In this document: piece by piece, positions 585-8,020 of the stretch
How the letters are laid out: every line of letters starts with the position of its first letter
Position numbering within the stretch: position 1 is the stretch's first letter
DNA from: Clostridiales bacterium
Lineage (GTDB): Bacteria > Bacillota > Clostridia > Lachnospirales > Lachnospiraceae
DNA: 40,975 nt
Assembly: GCA_021202015.1 (NCBI GenBank)
Contig: JAJQDV010000003.1
Span: 1-40,975 of the forward strand
Direction: 5' to 3'
Program-made: the position numbers and the translations under genes
Notes under the pieces: model-generated
Told to the model about the DNA's origin: nothing
Databases searched by the model: none
Seen by the model: the letters and a program-made list of their open reading frames with translations, nothing else

Positions 585-673
585 TCCGCTTCACACGCAC
601 CGTAAAACCCGGGCGCCGTCCGGCCTGAACATGGAAAACCGGCAGAAAAGCCGGAGAAATTTACATATTTTAC

Positions 674-701
674 TTGACAAAACCGATTCTGAAAGTAAAA
701 T
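674..701 (+). promoter_or_regulatory. Promoter of tRNA-Arg
   Basis: TTGACA (674-679), 16 bases, TAAAAT (696-701). The distance to the tRNA 5' end at 715 fits a very short leader. Confidence 0.75.
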
Positions 702-714
702 AGTTTTTGTCAAT

Positions 715-791
715 GTCTGCGTAGCTCAGTTGGATAGAGCGACCGCCTCCTAAGCGGTAGGTCGGGTGTTCGAGTCACCTCGCGGACGCCA
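715..791 (+). tRNA. tRNA-Arg (anticodon CCT)
   Basis: Cloverleaf is complete: acceptor arms GTCTGCG (715-721) and CGCGGAC (781-787) pair with one G-T, the anticodon stem ACCGC/GCGGT encloses CTCCTAA with anticodon CCT, and the T arm contains TTCGAGT. CCA is encoded at 789-791, unlike the two other tRNAs in the window. It decodes AGG. Confidence 0.96.
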
Positions 792-800
792 GCTAACAAC

Positions 801-840
801 GCCGGAAGCCTTATATTTCAAGGCTTTCGGCTTTCTTTTT
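801..840 (+). terminator. Rho-independent terminator after tRNA-Arg
   Basis: GCCGGAAGCCTT (801-812) pairs with AAGGCTTTCGGC (820-831) with one G-T pair, followed by a T-rich tail to 840. Confidence 0.85.
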
Positions 841-917
841 GCCTTGCAATAAAAAGCAGAGAACATCCGTATTTTAAGGCGGCATGGGACATTCCATGAT
901 CAGGAGGCTGTATTAAT

Positions 918-1073
918 CTGGCGCAGGAAGAAGCGTTTACCCTGTATCATTTGCCGTATAAGATACCGGGGAAGGGAAAGCAGGAAGAAAAGCGGCGGGA
1001 TGATTCCCGGCAGCAGCCCGACAACCGCCAGCTCCCCGCAGCCGGGGTGACACCCCTTCCCTCCACCAGTTGA
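918..1073 (+). other. Possible short reading frame or gene remnant
   Basis: Between the tRNA terminator and the next gene (792-1093) there is no recognised gene. An AGGAGG at 902-907 precedes an open frame that reads, from CTG at 918 (or ATT at 912), LAQEEAFTLYHLPYKIPG and continues about 50 codons to TGA at 1071. No ATG, GTG or TTG start suits it and I do not recognise the peptide. It may be a decayed gene end or chance. Confidence 0.2.
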
Positions 1074-1093
1074 TCCTGTTCGAGAAGCTCCGT

Positions 1094-2266
1094 CTACTCA
1101 TAGATACCGTTGATCGTCACCTCAAACAACGCGTCCTGCCCGTTCAGTTCATCGACCCCGTAATCGTCCGGAAACGTCACGCTGACCTCCACCGTGTCGC
1201 CCACATTTGCACCGATCAGCTGCTCCTCAAAATCATCAATATAACTCCCGGACCCGATCGTGAGATCCGTACCGGCGCCGTCGGTGCTCCCGCCGTCAAA
1301 CTCCGCATCGTCAATATATCCGGTATAATCAATATTCACGGTGTCGCCGTCCTCCACCACCAGCGAGGTATCCGTGGAATAGGAAGCGGTCTCCTCCTCG
1401 GCCGAGCTGTCCGTAGTCTCCGCGTCACCGCTGCCGTTCCGGTAAGCCGCCGCCCCGCCGATGATCGCAGCCACGATCACACAAATGACAACGATGAGCG
1501 CAATCAACCTTTTCCCTTTGATTTTTCCGCCGGACTGTCCGTTTTCCTGCTGTATTTTCTTCAGCATTATCAGCGTCTGCTCCTCCCGGAGCTTCTGCAT
1601 GCGTCCTTTTTTGTCATTGCTGTAATGAAATGTTTTAAGCCGTTCCTCAAAAAGATCGATCACATTTTTTCCGGCCGTGTTCTTCATGAAGAAATCGATC
1701 CCGCTTTCGCGCATGAACGCGATCTTCTCCTCATATTCCTTCGAAAGACAGGCCTGAAAAAACAGATCCACGCGTTGGTCGTCATGGATCATGCCGACCG
1801 GAATAACCGCGATCTGCTCAAACACCGGCATGGACGCAGCGCCGATCCGTTCATAACAGTCCGTCGCCTTCTTCTGGCGGATCAGGTTTCGCACTGTCTT
1901 CCCGTCGTCCACGCTGCAGGCCAGAGAAAACAGCTTCCTGCACTCCTCCGCGTCGGAAAGATCAAACTTTTTGCTGTATTTTTCCAGAACCTCCTGAACA
2001 AATTTTTTGTTCTGAAATACACTGAAATCCAGACGAAGCATGTCAGCGGTAAACGGCTCCTTCTGCCGGCTCAGAAAATCCATGATCTCCATACTGCGAA
2101 GCGACGCGAGCCGACGGCATGTGCGCGTCCGTTCTTCCCCCGTCAGCCCGGTCAGGGCTCCTCCCCTCAGCAGGCTCATCACATTCTCTCTCTGGTAACG
2201 GTCAATGGCATGATTCAGGTTCTCCAGATTCATTTCCTGCACGTTATCCTTCTTTTTATCGCCCAT
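1094..2266 (-). CDS. Membrane-anchored FKBP-type prolyl isomerase with ankyrin-like N-terminal region
   Basis: 390 residues in three parts. Residues 1-240 are helical and hydrophilic with ankyrin-like pieces such as RESGIDFFMKNTAGKNVIDL, probably cytosolic. Residues about 253-275 form one hydrophobic helix (LIALIVVICVIVAAIIGG). After an acidic Ser/Thr-rich linker, residues 303-390 resemble the FKBP domain of trigger factor (VEDGDTVNIDYTGYID, DFEEQLIGANVGDTVEV). The expected role is folding of exported proteins outside the membrane, with the inner part as an unknown adaptor; the topology is inferred from the charged GKIKGKR before the helix. GGAGG precedes the ATG. It stands alone, divergent from the TIR gene. 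Confidence 0.72.
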   Translation of the reverse strand: MGDKKKDNVQEMNLENLNHAIDRYQRENVMSLLRGGALTGLTGEERTRTCRRLASLRSMEIMDFLSRQKEPFTADMLRLDFSVFQNKKFVQEVLEKYSKKFDLSDAEECRKLFSLACSVDDGKTVRNLIRQKKATDCYERIGAASMPVFEQIAVIPVGMIHDDQRVDLFFQACLSKEYEEKIAFMRESGIDFFMKNTAGKNVIDLFEERLKTFHYSNDKKGRMQKLREEQTLIMLKKIQQENGQSGGKIKGKRLIALIVVICVIVAAIIGGAAAYRNGSGDAETTDSSAEEETASYSTDTSLVVEDGDTVNIDYTGYIDDAEFDGGSTDGAGTDLTIGSGSYIDDFEEQLIGANVGDTVEVSVTFPDDYGVDELNGQDALFEVTINGIYE

Positions 2267-2603
2267 GTTCCATCCTCCTTTTCCTTTTTACTTCTTACAA
2301 CAGATTCCCGGTCACGCGAAATCCGCCCTGCTTGGCCCACATTGCCGAAGTGCTCTCCGTCAAAAAAAAGTCCGCTCCTTCTGCCGTATGAAGCTATCTG
2401 TTATCATAGGAAACAAATGTGAAATCTCCTTGAGTAAAATGCGTTCATACTGTGAACCCATCCCGCATAATTTTTATTTGACATTCCGCGGCAGAACAAT
2501 CATAATAGAAACAACAGATTAACCGGAGAAGATTTTTCAATCCACGCGCGGTGTCGATTCTTATTCAGTGCATGGATAAACAGATGTATATGGAGGAAAA
2601 CAA
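2267..2603. other. Intergenic region between divergent genes
   Basis: 337 bases without a convincing gene. It holds the promoter of the TIR unit on the plus strand; a promoter for the minus-strand FKBP gene was not convincingly found. No repeat of families A-C is present. Confidence 0.6.
2478..2506 (+). promoter_or_regulatory. Promoter of the TIR-V4R / asparaginase-like unit
   Basis: TTGACA (2478-2483), 17 bases, CATAAT (2501-2506): near-consensus. The leader would be about 90 bases long. Confidence 0.7.
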
Positions 2604-3623
2604 ATGAAAAAAGAAGTTTTTGTCAGCTATGCTTCCGCCGACAGAGCCTGTGCCATGGATATCGTGGGATATCTGGAGGAGAGAGAGGTTTCATGCTTTA
2701 TCGCACCAAGGGACATCGACCCCGGCGTAGCTTACGCATCTTCTTTGATGAACGCGCTGGAAGATGCCTCCGTGGTTGTTCTGGTCGCCTCTGTTGCCAT
2801 GAACAGTTCGGAACATGTTTTGAACGAAATAGACGTCGTGGTTTCAAAAAAGATTCCGTTCATCCCGTTTTTTATTGAAGATTTTGAGATGAATGACGAT
2901 TTCAGGTATTATCTCGGCAGAAAACAGTACATACTGGCCTATGATAACTACAGTGATTATTTCAATAAACTGTACAAAGCGATCGAACCATATCTGACAC
3001 GAAAGCCGGAAAAACCGGTCGCGCCCGCCGCCCCTGAGACGGATAACGGCGACGATGTCTCAGCCAACACAAAAACCATATTCGAGTATTTCCCCGACCG
3101 CGGCATCATGGTAAACCCCGCCGACCACCAGAGGAACATCAGTTTTCGGAATGACACCCTGATCAATCTGCTGAGCCGGTTATACTACGGGATCGAGAGC
3201 ATATCCGATCGAGAGACGGCAGACAAGCTGTTTTATGAGACAGGTTTTTCATCGGGGAATAATTTCGCGCAGAGACTGAATGAACAGATTGAAATGAGCG
3301 CCAGCCATCGCGTCGGACTCAGTGCCAAGATTGATACCTGGTGTGATTTTGACTCAAACGTGGGCTGGGGCAGGTTTCTATCGGATATTCACATCGACGA
3401 GGAAGAGGGGGAATTATCCGGCACCCTGACCATCAGCGAATGCTTTCTGATCGACAAAAAGGATCAGACGGAGATCTGTTTCTTCATCAAAGGCTACTGC
3501 GAGGGTATCCTGGAGAAATTATTGGGCAATATACCGGTAGAGCTGAAGTGCATCTCGTGCCCGATGAAAAACAAATTCAAGAGCGCCTGCGTCTTCAGTG
3601 TCGGCTTAAAAGAATCATATTAG
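2604..3623 (+). CDS. TIR domain protein with C-terminal V4R-like sensor domain
   Basis: 339 residues. Residues 1-130 are a bacterial TIR domain: EVFVSYASADRACAMDI, the loop CFIAPRDIDPG and HVLNEIDVVVSKKIPFIPFF. Glu75 in HVLNE aligns with the catalytic Glu of NAD-cleaving TIR domains. A Pro/Ala linker (about 131-155) leads to a domain ending ICFFIKGYCEGILEKLLG, then a Glu/Cys/Cys pattern and SACVFSVGL, which fits the V4R (4-vinyl reductase) small-molecule binding fold; this call is by pattern and less sure than TIR. GGAGG lies 7 bases before the ATG. The asparaginase-like gene follows after 42 bases. A ligand-switched NADase is the working idea, not shown. Confidence 0.75.
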   Translation: MKKEVFVSYASADRACAMDIVGYLEEREVSCFIAPRDIDPGVAYASSLMNALEDASVVVLVASVAMNSSEHVLNEIDVVVSKKIPFIPFFIEDFEMNDDFRYYLGRKQYILAYDNYSDYFNKLYKAIEPYLTRKPEKPVAPAAPETDNGDDVSANTKTIFEYFPDRGIMVNPADHQRNISFRNDTLINLLSRLYYGIESISDRETADKLFYETGFSSGNNFAQRLNEQIEMSASHRVGLSAKIDTWCDFDSNVGWGRFLSDIHIDEEEGELSGTLTISECFLIDKKDQTEICFFIKGYCEGILEKLLGNIPVELKCISCPMKNKFKSACVFSVGLKESY

Positions 3624-3665
3624 ATCGTTCTACTCTCAGAGTAACGAATTATTCAGGAGAACAGT

Positions 3666-4625
3666 ATGAAAATATCAGTGATTTTTACAGGCGGAACGAT
3701 CGGCAGCACCGTGGAGGAGAAGTACATCTCCCTGGATGCCGATTCCTATCGCCTGCTTCATATGTACAGAGAAAATTATGATACGTCCGGTCTTCAGTTT
3801 GAGACAGGGAGTCCTTTTTCTATTTTAAGTGAAAACCTCAGTCTGGAACACGCGCTGCAGCTCGCGCGGATCGTTAAAAATCAGGCGGAAAAGACTTATG
3901 ACGCGATCATCCTGACGCACGGCACGGACACAATCCAGTATACGGCTTCCCTGCTCGAATGGATGTGTACCGATGTAAAGATTCCGGTTTTTCTCGTATC
4001 AAGCAATCTGGTGCTGGACGACCCGGACTCCAACGGTCTGATCAATTTTCACGGAGCCGTCGTCGCCGCAGGAGAAAATATCGCTCCCGGCGTATACGTC
4101 AGCTATCAGAATGTCGGCGGGGAACTCTGCATCCACCGCGCTTCCATGCTGCTGCCGCATCGGATTTTTGATGAAAATCTCTACAGCGTCAGAGACAAAA
4201 TATATGCGGTCGTAAAAAATGAGCGGCTGATTCCGATGATTCACGATTTTCACGAGCTGCGTGTTCTGGATGGGCTTGAGATGACCTGCGAACGCCGGAT
4301 TCCTAAGATCGCGATGCTCACGATCTATCCCGATATGGGGGATGTTTTCGCGAATACGGTACTGTCAGAGGAAACGGACGCCGTCATCCTGACCTGCTAT
4401 CATTCGGGGACGCTGCCCACGGAACAGGAGTCTTTTCTCCGGTTCTGTGAAACGGCAAAAAGGAAAAATATCCCCGTCTATCTCTGCGGGATCTATCAGG
4501 AACACGGCTACAGCTCTACAAAAAAATTCGAAGAATTATCCCTGATCCGTATGCCGTGGATCTCACCGATCGCATTGTACACAAAGCTGGTCAGCCTGTG
4601 TGTGTCCGATTTCGGGAAGTCCTGA
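3666..4625 (+). CDS. Asparaginase-like protein, atypical active site
   Basis: 319 residues with the two-domain L-asparaginase pattern: TGGTIGS near the N-terminus (Thr11, nucleophile position), ILSENLSLEHA (substrate-side loop), HGTDT at 85-89 (second catalytic Thr87 and Asp88) and a C-terminal domain with YHSGTLPTEQESF. The catalytic Lys that follows the Arg-x-x pattern in ordinary asparaginases appears to be Met161 (IHRASM). It may therefore use another substrate, work slowly or only bind. AGGAG precedes the ATG, and the short gap after the TIR gene suggests co-transcription. No signal peptide, so cytosolic. Confidence 0.75.
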   Translation: MKISVIFTGGTIGSTVEEKYISLDADSYRLLHMYRENYDTSGLQFETGSPFSILSENLSLEHALQLARIVKNQAEKTYDAIILTHGTDTIQYTASLLEWMCTDVKIPVFLVSSNLVLDDPDSNGLINFHGAVVAAGENIAPGVYVSYQNVGGELCIHRASMLLPHRIFDENLYSVRDKIYAVVKNERLIPMIHDFHELRVLDGLEMTCERRIPKIAMLTIYPDMGDVFANTVLSEETDAVILTCYHSGTLPTEQESFLRFCETAKRKNIPVYLCGIYQEHGYSSTKKFEELSLIRMPWISPIALYTKLVSLCVSDFGKS

Positions 4626-4663
4626 CCGCCCCATGCCCTTCAGCAACAGGATGTCTTCGCAAC

Positions 4664-4754
4664 TCCAAAATCATCCCTCCGGCACCGCTCGCTACAACTC
4701 CGGAATCATCCCTCCGGCGCCGCTCACTACAGCTCCGGAATCATCCCTCCGGCA
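4664..4754. repeat. 35-bp tandem repeat, 2.6 copies
   Basis: Units begin at 4664, 4699 and 4734; the core CTCCGGAATCATCCCTCCGG recurs exactly 35 bases apart (the first copy has AAAA for CGGA). Each core has the dyad CCGGA/TCCGG, so RNA from either strand could fold into a row of hairpins between the two convergent genes. The last copy supplies the final codons and TGA of the HD gene. Confidence 0.85.
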
Positions 4755-5196
4755 TCACATCTCCCTCCAGGATCTTTCTGGCTCTGGCATATTTCTCCCG
4801 CCAGAAGGCCAGACCGTCCTCCGTCACATTCTCACAGCCGGCCAGTCTCGTCTCATCGGAGTTATGCGCGATATCCGCCAGCTTGACCGCCTTCGCTACG
4901 GGATTCTCCCGAATGGCCCGCACATAATCATAGTAATCCGTTCCTTCCTCGTGTGTCAGCAGCCGCACGGCGTCCATGACCTCCGCAGGGAATTCGTTCT
5001 CCAGTTCCTCCAGCGTGACCGGGGTATCCTCCACCACATCATGAAGAAGCGCGGTACAGACCGATATCTCATCCTTCATCTGCTCCGCCACATGATACGG
5101 ATGAAAAATATACGGCTGACCGCTCTGATCTGTCTGACCCTGATGCGCCGCGTAAGCGATACGCATCGCCCTGTTCGTTAACTCTGTGTAAATCAT
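4741..5196 (-). CDS. Small HD-domain hydrolase, MESH1/small alarmone hydrolase-like
   Basis: 151 residues, a stand-alone copy of the HD domain found in RelA/SpoT proteins. Likely metal ligands are His32 or His35 (YIFHPYHVAE), His52-Asp53 (LLHDVVEDT) and Asp108 (KLADIAHNSDE). Single-domain members hydrolyse (p)ppGpp or related nucleotides; the substrate here is not known. No synthetase or TGS domain is present. Start ATG has AGGGG 8 bases upstream. The C-terminus MPEG and stop lie inside the 35-bp tandem repeat, so the end of this protein may vary between strains. Confidence 0.8.
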   Translation of the reverse strand: MIYTELTNRAMRIAYAAHQGQTDQSGQPYIFHPYHVAEQMKDEISVCTALLHDVVEDTPVTLEELENEFPAEVMDAVRLLTHEEGTDYYDYVRAIRENPVAKAVKLADIAHNSDETRLAGCENVTEDGLAFWREKYARARKILEGDVMPEG

Positions 5197-5648
5197 ATCT
5201 TATCCCCTTTTCCGACACCTGATTCTGCCCGCTCGCAGGATATCCGCACCCATGAAACAATCCCATTTCCCATGACAGTTTCCGGATCCGTATTATTTGT
5301 GTATACGCAAGGGTGTAAAAGGAAGATGACAGCTATGCTTTCCGCACCTCGCACGGCGAGTAAGAAGCAAAAACCGCCTTCTACTCGATTACACCATGCG
5401 AATTATACAATATCGACAAATATTTGTATACCGTGGATTTAAAAAAAGCATAAAATATGATCAGAATTGAACAGAAAGTCTTTACAATTACACGATTGCA
5501 TTCTCCGATAAATAATGTTACGGTGTAAAACATCCACGGAAAAGTCCCGTTATCAGCGAGCAGGACGTCACTCCGGAAACGGTATGGCAGAGCAGACATA
5601 AAAACCGCTCCTGTCCGCCATACCGGAAGCAGGAAAGGAGGAAATTCT
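5197..5648. other. Intergenic region before the FUSC gene
   Basis: 452 bases with no convincing gene. It contains the HD gene promoter, a perfect palindrome ACAAATATTTGT (5416-5427), AT-rich sequence around 5400-5520 without a clear plus promoter, and a stem GGTATGGC (5581-5588) / GCCATACC (5617-5624) just before the FUSC ribosome binding site. Confidence 0.6.
5290..5319 (-). promoter_or_regulatory. Possible promoter of the HD hydrolase gene
   Basis: On the minus strand TTTACA (5319-5314), 18 bases, TAATAC (5295-5290). The leader would be about 90 bases. Confidence 0.4.
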
Positions 5649-7220
5649 ATGTCAACACAGATAAAGAACATAAAGGTTACGAAAGAAAGCCTGAAAGGCG
5701 CAGTGATTCCTACGATTGTAGTAACCTGCATTTTTTTCCTCAATTATTTTTGTTTTGGTACGGACAACACGATCATCGGCCCGTGCCTGACCCTGTCCTA
5801 CCTGTATTTTCGCGGCATGAGCAACCCCTTCGGCAGCATGATCAAGACGCTCCTGATCTACATGTCGATCGCGGTCTTCGCATGGATCGCCGGGATCAGC
5901 CTGCCGCTCTGCATTATTGTCAACGCAAGCGCGTTTTTCTGGATTGTATATGAGCTGAACGATGAGCAGCATCCCACGAATTACTATACGCCGGGGATGG
6001 CGTTCATCCTGTTCCAGCTGTTTCCGGTCACCGGCTTCGGCGTGGTCACCCGGATTGAAGCCATAGTGGCGTCCTTCGCCATCACCTTCTTTTTCCTGCT
6101 CATCCTGCCGTCGAGGAAAAACAAAAGGACGGTTCGGGATAAGGTAAAGGAAGGTCTGGATCTCAGTGAGAATCTCATTCAGGCCTACCAGATGGACGAT
6201 GAGGACGGGATCTTCCTGTACCAGGACCGGCTCCGCCGGATCAACGAACAGATCTCGGACGCCATCTATTTACATAACTATTCTTCCTTCCGGCATAACC
6301 GCCGGGTGAACTGGTACTGCCGGTTTGTGGCGCTGTTCCAGGTCTTCACCACACTGTGTGAGACAAAACAGCAGGAGGACCGGACGGAGAATATGCAGAA
6401 TCTGCTGACGAATTTCAAGGCATTATTTGACGGAGAGGAGCAGTTCAGCAGCAAAACGAGGCTGGAGTTCCGCACAAACAAACCGGATATCCGGTCGTTC
6501 CGCCTGCGCTTCGCGCTGCGGCAGGTTATCATCATGACGCCCTGCATGATCTATGCCTACCTCTGCCCCTTCGGAAACGGCTACTGGCTGCCCGTGTCCG
6601 TATTTTTCATGCTGGTACCGCTTTACGAAAACATGGCGAACCGTGTAGGCGGACGTCTGAAGGGCACGCTCGCCGGCGTTGTGCTCTGCCTCGTCCTGTA
6701 CTCCATCTTCCCGGGGACGCAGGCGCACATTGTGCTTATGATTATTTTTAATTTCCTGATCTACAGCGCAAACGGATATGCGACCTCTGTGGCCTACATC
6801 ACCTGCGCCGTGCTCGCGCTCGGAATCACGCCGGATAATATCCTGTTTACACTGGCGGAGCGGCTGATCTACACCTTCGGCGGAGCGGCGCTGACCGTGT
6901 TTGCCAGCAAATTCATCTTCCCCATCCGGATCAAACCGGAGGCGGATTTCCTGTATGAAAAGCTGATTGATCTCCAGGGACAGATGGAGCAGCTGGCCGC
7001 CAGAAAATTTACGGATCGCGAGGAGGAACGGCACGAAAAAGATCAGCTGCTGATCCGCTCCTACCTCTTAAGCAGACGCCTGCGTCTCTACAACGAATCC
7101 CTGCGGGCAGAGGATCAGAACCGCGAGCTCATGGAGCAGCTCAATAGCCATATGATGAACATGTCTTTCTACCTGATCCGGCACTTTACAGGAATCCGGG
7201 CGGATGTGGTGGAGGGGTGA
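5649..7220 (+). CDS. FUSC family membrane transporter
   Basis: 523 residues built as two similar halves: hydrophobic helices in about 15-155, a cytosolic helical stretch of about 130 residues (KEGLDLSENLIQAYQMDDED onward), a second membrane block in about 280-430, and a charged cytosolic tail. This is the FUSC / aromatic acid exporter plan; the pattern PFGNGYWLPVSVFFMLVP in the second half is typical. Family members are linked to export of aromatic acids or similar amphipathic compounds, but the substrate here is unknown. AAAGGAGG lies 6 bases before the ATG. A stem-loop in the leader may regulate it. Confidence 0.8.
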   Translation: MSTQIKNIKVTKESLKGAVIPTIVVTCIFFLNYFCFGTDNTIIGPCLTLSYLYFRGMSNPFGSMIKTLLIYMSIAVFAWIAGISLPLCIIVNASAFFWIVYELNDEQHPTNYYTPGMAFILFQLFPVTGFGVVTRIEAIVASFAITFFFLLILPSRKNKRTVRDKVKEGLDLSENLIQAYQMDDEDGIFLYQDRLRRINEQISDAIYLHNYSSFRHNRRVNWYCRFVALFQVFTTLCETKQQEDRTENMQNLLTNFKALFDGEEQFSSKTRLEFRTNKPDIRSFRLRFALRQVIIMTPCMIYAYLCPFGNGYWLPVSVFFMLVPLYENMANRVGGRLKGTLAGVVLCLVLYSIFPGTQAHIVLMIIFNFLIYSANGYATSVAYITCAVLALGITPDNILFTLAERLIYTFGGAALTVFASKFIFPIRIKPEADFLYEKLIDLQGQMEQLAARKFTDREEERHEKDQLLIRSYLLSRRLRLYNESLRAEDQNRELMEQLNSHMMNMSFYLIRHFTGIRADVVEG

Positions 7221-7348: not shown

Positions 7349-7678
7349 ATGGAAAACGAAAAGATGTTCACAGAATTGGTGAATGGTTTGTGTTATGTTT
7401 TCGGAGTTAATATTCAACAGATCATATTATATGGCTCAGTAGTCAGAAACGAATCTTCAAATGAAAGTGATATTGACATAGCTATCATATTAAAAAACGA
7501 AATGTCAATGACAGAAAAAAACGATTTTCTGGACTTACTATCTGATTTGGATACAAAATATGAAAAAATATTTTCCGTGATAGATATTTCTCAGAAAAAT
7601 ATGGAAACATGGGGGGACATTTTGCCCTTCTATAAAAATATAAAGAAAGAAGGAATCTTGCTTTGGAAGGCAGCTTAA
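7349..7678 (+). CDS. MNT-type nucleotidyltransferase antitoxin
   Basis: 109 residues with the minimal nucleotidyltransferase motif: Gly29-Ser30 followed by Asp41 and Asp43 in GSVVRNESSNESDIDIAI. In MntA/HepT systems this enzyme adds AMP to the HEPN partner and silences it. AGGAGG lies 8 bases before the ATG. The last 16 bases overlap the start of the HEPN frame, a normal arrangement for the pair. The gene is clearly more AT-rich than its neighbours, which suggests transfer. It is intact although its partner is not. Confidence 0.85.
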   Translation: MENEKMFTELVNGLCYVFGVNIQQIILYGSVVRNESSNESDIDIAIILKNEMSMTEKNDFLDLLSDLDTKYEKIFSVIDISQKNMETWGDILPFYKNIKKEGILLWKAA

Positions 7679-8020
7679 AGGTATTGATTCATTACCGAAT
7701 GGAAAGAGCTCACGAAATGCTGTTGGCCTCGGAAGAAAATCTTAAGGCAGGGCAATACAGAACCTCTATGAACCGCTCTTATTACGCTGTTTTTCATGCA
7801 ATGCGAGCAGTCAATGTATTAGACGGATTTGATTCTTCCAAACATTCCGGCGTAATTGCCCACTTCAATAATCAAAGATACTTCATATCTGCGTGAAAAA
7901 TCAGATTATGATGATTTTTATCTGGCAAGCAGACAGGAAGCTGAAACGCAGGTGACGAACGCAAAAAAATTCGTGGAAGCGATAGAAATCTTTTTGAAGA
8001 CAAATATACCTGACAATTAA
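7663..8020 (+). pseudogene. HEPN toxin gene, broken by an internal deletion and frameshift
   Basis: Begins with TTG at 7663 (AAGGA upstream) and reads a HEPN domain with the catalytic Arg38-x6-His45 motif (RSYYAVFH). After KHSGVIAHFNNQ the frame ends at TGA 7894-7896. In the +1 frame from 7877 the expected family C-terminus continues, SYLREKSDYDDFYLASRQ, to TAA at 8018-8020. Compared with intact relatives, about 15-20 residues between the two parts are missing, so this is a deletion of a number of bases not divisible by three rather than one lost base. A truncated 77-residue product could still be made. Confidence 0.82.

Follow-up and report, generated by a model that had tools for sequence, protein, structure and literature searches.

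Results

The locus encodes a TIR-V4R protein and an asparaginase-like partner

The locus lies in a 40,975-nucleotide stretch of Lachnospiraceae DNA (hereafter the window) and consists of two genes, both on the + strand and 42 nt apart. The first (2604–3623) encodes a 339-residue protein with a TIR domain (residues 5–122; 2616–2969) and a V4R-like sensor domain (about residues 156–339; 3069–3620), and the second (3666–4625) encodes a 319-residue asparaginase-like protein (PF00710, E 1.1e-29) of what we name here the SEN subfamily. The + strand also carries, at 2478–2506, the promoter proposed in the preliminary description, a near-consensus sigma-70-like site (TTGACA-17-CATAAT, 11/12 matches), and no terminator-like site is listed between the two genes. 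The two-gene unit itself was confirmed, and the asparaginase-fold gene is probably cotranscribed with the TIR-V4R gene.

The TIR-V4R protein exceeded the curated cut-off of TIR_2 (PF13676) with 64.3 bits versus 28. By sequence profile, the best solved chain for the TIR domain was TIR-APAZ of the short Argonaute system SPARTA (E 6.5e-7), and the alignment placed Glu75 (2826–2828) at Glu77 of that protein, which we take to be its catalytic glutamate. Glu75 was conserved in all four TIR-V4R proteins found, in keeping with its earlier assignment as the putative catalytic residue. Judged from the fold and from Glu75, the TIR-V4R protein probably destroys NAD+. It differs from SPARTA in that no Argonaute or APAZ was found here, and a V4R-like sensor domain stands in their place.

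The C-terminal domain has a V4R-type fold and four invariant cysteines

That a TIR domain is joined to a V4R domain, as first described, is supported by fold and not by Pfam score: the C-terminal domain has the fold of the V4R/MopR-type sensor superfamily, while it reached 12–13 bits against V4R (PF02830), under the curated 31. The hhalign match of this domain to V4R was moderate. DUF2507, the other family put forward for this part, gave no profile match and was rejected. The structure models were built from 4-row alignments and had pLDDT values of 68–69; with VIA-align, the 50 matches listed for the TIR-V4R protein were, but for one DNPH1, TIR or MopR/PoxR/DmpR chains. An hmmsearch of PDB sequences with the V4R part gave nothing at E 10.

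Four cysteines, all putative zinc ligands, are invariant in the four TIR-V4R proteins, and their spacing is similar to that of the Cys-rich zinc site of V4R/MopR domains: Cys292 (3477–3479), Cys316 (3549–3551), Cys319 (3558–3560), and Cys329 (3588–3590), all on the + strand. The hhalign match covers only Cys292, aligned to the first conserved V4R cysteine, and stops short of the last three; Cys316 lies close to where other V4R domains have a Glu, an equivalence drawn by eye, and Cys319 and Cys329 follow at spacings of 27 (from Cys292) and 10 (from Cys319). According to the part of PMC10715001 available to us, the zinc set of MopR, PoxR, and DmpR is three Cys and one Glu, versus the putative four Cys of the TIR-V4R protein. 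For MsvR, an excerpt of PMC3729527 gives V4R cysteines C206, C232, and C240, a conserved spacing of 26 and 8 versus 27 and 10 here. The settings differ as well: in MopR/PoxR/DmpR the aromatic sensor controls a sigma54-type activator and here it is fused to a TIR domain, while MsvR is an archaeal DNA-binding redox regulator. Zinc binding is predicted, and the V4R domain is probably a zinc-stabilized dimer.

The SEN partner lacks, by alignment, the catalytic lysine of asparaginases

The preliminary description had called the partner amidohydrolase-like. That label does not hold without qualification. The partner retains the catalytic Thr and Asp, but the catalytic Lys that type I/II L-asparaginases have is absent, by alignment, in 44 of the 45 SEN rows. 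Thr11 (3696–3698, + strand), the counterpart of the nucleophile, is found in 45/45 rows, Pro164 (4155–4157, + strand) occupies the column of the canonical Lys in the window's protein, and an invariant Ser-Glu stands where asparaginases have Ser-Ser/Thr/Pro. The portion of PMC8256714 that we consulted names five crucial residues in E. coli EcAII (Thr, Tyr, Thr, Asp, and Lys). This set is incomplete in the window's partner, in which Thr11, Thr87, and Asp88 are present and the Lys is replaced by Pro164; Tyr20 lies in a poorly aligned column, with Tyr in one of six ordinary enzymes. The partner also missed the cut-off of the type I L-asparaginase model TIGR00519 (99–100 bits versus 260.5). An ordinary asparaginase as the full description of the partner was rejected in view of the absent Lys and the score far below cut-off. 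According to an excerpt of PMC7567106, turnover of Asn (kcat) by Pseudomonas 7A glutaminase-asparaginase falls from 31 to 0.00028 per second when this Lys is replaced. Because the catalytic Lys is absent in 44/45 rows, the SEN partner is probably not a fast asparaginase; the subfamily may be slow, or may act as a binder instead of an enzyme.

Every TIR-V4R gene found adjoins a SEN gene

Relatives of the TIR-V4R protein are rare. A pattern scan of contigs from 84,980 species (a single genome per species), which detects close relatives only, returned three proteins 45–46% identical to the window's, and two of these are the two other full-length matches in 397 family genomes. The full-length profile gave two full-length matches in 392 order genomes. 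With the C-terminal profile, matches were seen in 3/397 family and 1/391 class genomes (overlapping draws; the window's own genome is one of the three and is the single class match), and within these draws the V4R part was not found alone or with other effectors beyond the known ones. Carriage of the TIR-V4R gene by phages or plasmids was rejected: there were no relatives among 200 pattern stretches in viral contigs (0/43 for the V4R part) and none in plasmids at E 1e-4. The SEN query gave distant matches only in a phage collection (20–33% identity, 10 records), and the SEN alignment gave one match in viral contigs (28% identity).

The four TIR-V4R genes (the window's genome and three MAGs) come from the window, a Roseburia MAG, Lachnospiraceae SIG300, and Clostridia RGIG8780. 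At all four loci a SEN gene lies downstream on the same strand, as the adjacency described for the window would predict, with gaps of 42, 22, 2, and 12 nt that depend on the chosen start codons (a longer frame in Roseburia would overlap, and the SIG300 start is TTG). Chance adjacency of two unrelated genes is barely credible here, given that order and strand are kept in 4/4 cases at 46–47% protein identity while the flanks differ, even though 42 of 46 SEN loci have other neighbors. Since the pairing recurs amid different gene neighborhoods, it probably represents a genuine switch, one that is rare and so far undescribed.

The dependence is one-sided, because the SEN gene mostly occurs without TIR-V4R. 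SEN members are present in 45/397 family genomes, mostly without a TIR gene, and no TIR-V4R neighbor was seen at 42 of the 46 SEN loci read (two of the 42 had no readable upstream ORF). The 46 loci include the four pairs by construction, and the neighbor counts lean toward TIR because the SEN profile derives from the four TIR-linked proteins, and RGIG8780 itself entered through a TIR query. Tight co-occurrence in one direction (0 of 4 TIR-V4R genes found without a SEN partner) and short gaps would suit a toxin-antitoxin-like guard, in which the bound partner holds the TIR-V4R protein off and NAD+ destruction starts once the partner is lost. We consider this quite unlikely, as the partner family is far commoner than the TIR-V4R gene (45 versus 3 of 397 genomes) and the TIR-linked SEN proteins diverge more from the window's copy than the TIR-V4R proteins do (34–40% versus 46–47% identity), unlike a dedicated antitoxin.

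The pairs lie in different gene neighborhoods

The window's pair is flanked by FKBP and HD genes. The divergent upstream gene (1094–2266, − strand) encodes 390 residues with a C-terminal FKBP-type, trigger-factor-like domain preceded by a membrane segment (by eye). An MntA-like nucleotidyltransferase gene (7349–7678; PF18765 E 1.4e-12, PADLOC PDC-S09 E 7e-22) lies 2.7 kb downstream of the pair, followed at 7663–8020 by a sequence that, by eye, resembles a HEPN-type reading frame but is divided between two frames (7663–7896 and 7856–8020). In RGIG8780 an AraC-like gene lies in the flank (by eye). The Roseburia pair has CbiC upstream; directly downstream on the same strand (649–6798 of its contig) are genes for a TIR-Sel1 protein, a STAND/NACHT-like NTPase, an uncharacterized protein, and a T4SS coupling protein, a possible defense or mobile context. 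Defense-type neighbors were seen at this locus only, as a second TIR gene and the STAND/NACHT-like NTPase, whose matches are weak and under cut-offs; by eye and with a few scans, no recognized defense gene was found directly beside the pair at the other three.

In SIG300 the pair directly follows aspS-gatC-gatA-gatB (L101 3450–10105, by eye), a set of Asn/Gln-tRNA amidation genes. The pair might be a nitrogen or amino-acid stress regulator and not a defense system, with the partner setting an Asn/Asp-type pool and the TIR-V4R protein tuning NAD+ or signals. One lone SEN gene (L097) likewise follows a GatB gene, and in the window's own genome, which is 91% complete, the type I asparaginase model gives no further match at E 1e-10. 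On balance we hold this reading to be unlikely but worth serious consideration: the amidation neighborhood is found at one of four pairs only, the loss of the Lys speaks against fast Asn hydrolysis, and the patchy presence in 3/397 family genomes resembles an accessory gene more than core regulation.

No partner common to the lone SEN genes emerged: besides TIR, no Pfam family occurred in more than 3 of their 77 scanned neighbors. Two lone SEN genes (L063 and L070) lie within 2 nt after an Mfd (TRCF) gene, and two others (L083 and L090) just before a SpoVT-type gene. Two near-identical rows of one genus (L057 and L058) have a downstream gene in common, of which one copy was scanned, and a lone Roseburia-genus SEN gene is followed by what by eye is an NADH pyrophosphatase (L059 610–1446). 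In a further genome (G188) a TIR gene lies about 2 kb from the SEN gene with two genes between, and its TIR protein has no V4R match at E 0.01.

The tree does not unite the TIR-linked SEN proteins

In a tree of 47 rows, including two ordinary asparaginases, the four TIR-linked SEN proteins were not a clade, although the bootstrap had not settled (0.987) and the window's protein sits on a long branch that pairs with a second long one (L095). Grouping the four was rejected by the AU test (p-AU 0.0035; 0.0054 without the window's row), run after the tree was inspected and on a group defined through linkage to TIR-V4R rather than through topology. The treekit group table gives the four rows as one change, counted against the two ordinary asparaginases only, with 41 rows not counted. 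The Roseburia SEN protein groups with a same-genus SEN protein (97/89) whose genome (68% complete) is absent from the TIR-V4R matches, and the RGIG8780 protein sits with a pair of lone SEN proteins from a single different genus (86/84). Because the TIR-linked partners are not a clade, and with the long branches as a caveat, the tree suggests either repeated joining of the TIR-V4R gene to resident SEN genes or its loss on many occasions.

Discussion

Earlier descriptions of this pairing were sought and not found: in a library of open-licence papers, none mentioned both a TIR domain and a V4R domain, and none mentioned TIR, V4R, and asparaginase together. The main text of PMC9503650, which surveys NAD+-ADPr systems, mentions neither asparaginase nor V4R. 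One paper, a TLR therapy review, mentions asparaginase, TIR domain, and defense system. Provisionally, we regard the TIR-V4R/asparaginase-like pair as an undescribed variant among TIR effectors.

Thoeris is among the closest known arrangements, in that it also pairs a TIR gene with a partner gene, and its effector carries SIR2-SLOG or macro-domains where the partner here has an asparaginase fold. The pair could work in a Thoeris-like manner: the TIR protein would produce a signal built on ADPR, and its asparaginase-fold partner would bind this signal as receptor or effector. Its two-gene layout fits, as does an amino-acid pocket without fast turnover, which could serve as a receptor, and a TIR system with a histidine-ADPR signal is mentioned in the part of PMC11204291 available to us. 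The TIR domain also matches ThcB4 and ThsB models, though weakly and under the Thoeris ThsB/ThcB cut-off (ThcB4 26.4 bits versus 220). No ThsA-type effector was found beside the TIR gene, the partner lacks any evident killing domain and gave no PADLOC match at E 0.1, and the SEN subfamily mostly lacks a TIR-V4R neighbor, so that we doubt this reading about as much as the toxin-antitoxin-like guard.

We tentatively favor, at a confidence somewhat short of probable, a zinc- or ligand-gated TIR NADase regulated by the asparaginase-fold partner, in which the activity, the zinc, the ligand, and the direction of control are all predicted. In this two-gene switch, the TIR domain would cleave NAD+ and the C-terminal V4R domain would restrain it. 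Binding of a small ligand to the V4R domain, or oxidation or metal loss at its cysteine/zinc site, would lift this restraint; the TIR domains would then assemble and NAD+ would be destroyed. The partner would act as a regulator, binding an amino-acid or amide metabolite or converting it slowly; it would thereby set what the V4R domain reads, or would touch the TIR-V4R protein directly. Any role in phage defense would be putative. A combined scheme seems to us more doubtful than any of the readings above except chance adjacency. It would be a new class of TIR switch: a zinc/thiol V4R-fold sensor would gate NAD+ destruction, a catalytically handicapped asparaginase-fold protein would receive or trap a signal that is based on an amino acid and perhaps conjugated to ADPR, and the sensor gene would have been attached repeatedly to resident SEN members.

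The SEN subfamily itself presents a puzzle: replacement of the catalytic Lys cripples kcat elsewhere, yet 45 of 397 family genomes retain a member of this subfamily without it. For most bacterial TIR effectors described so far, the trigger is a protein, a nucleic acid, or a nucleotide. Fusion of a TIR domain to a domain with the phenol-sensor fold would instead place NAD+ destruction under the control of a metabolite or of the redox state.
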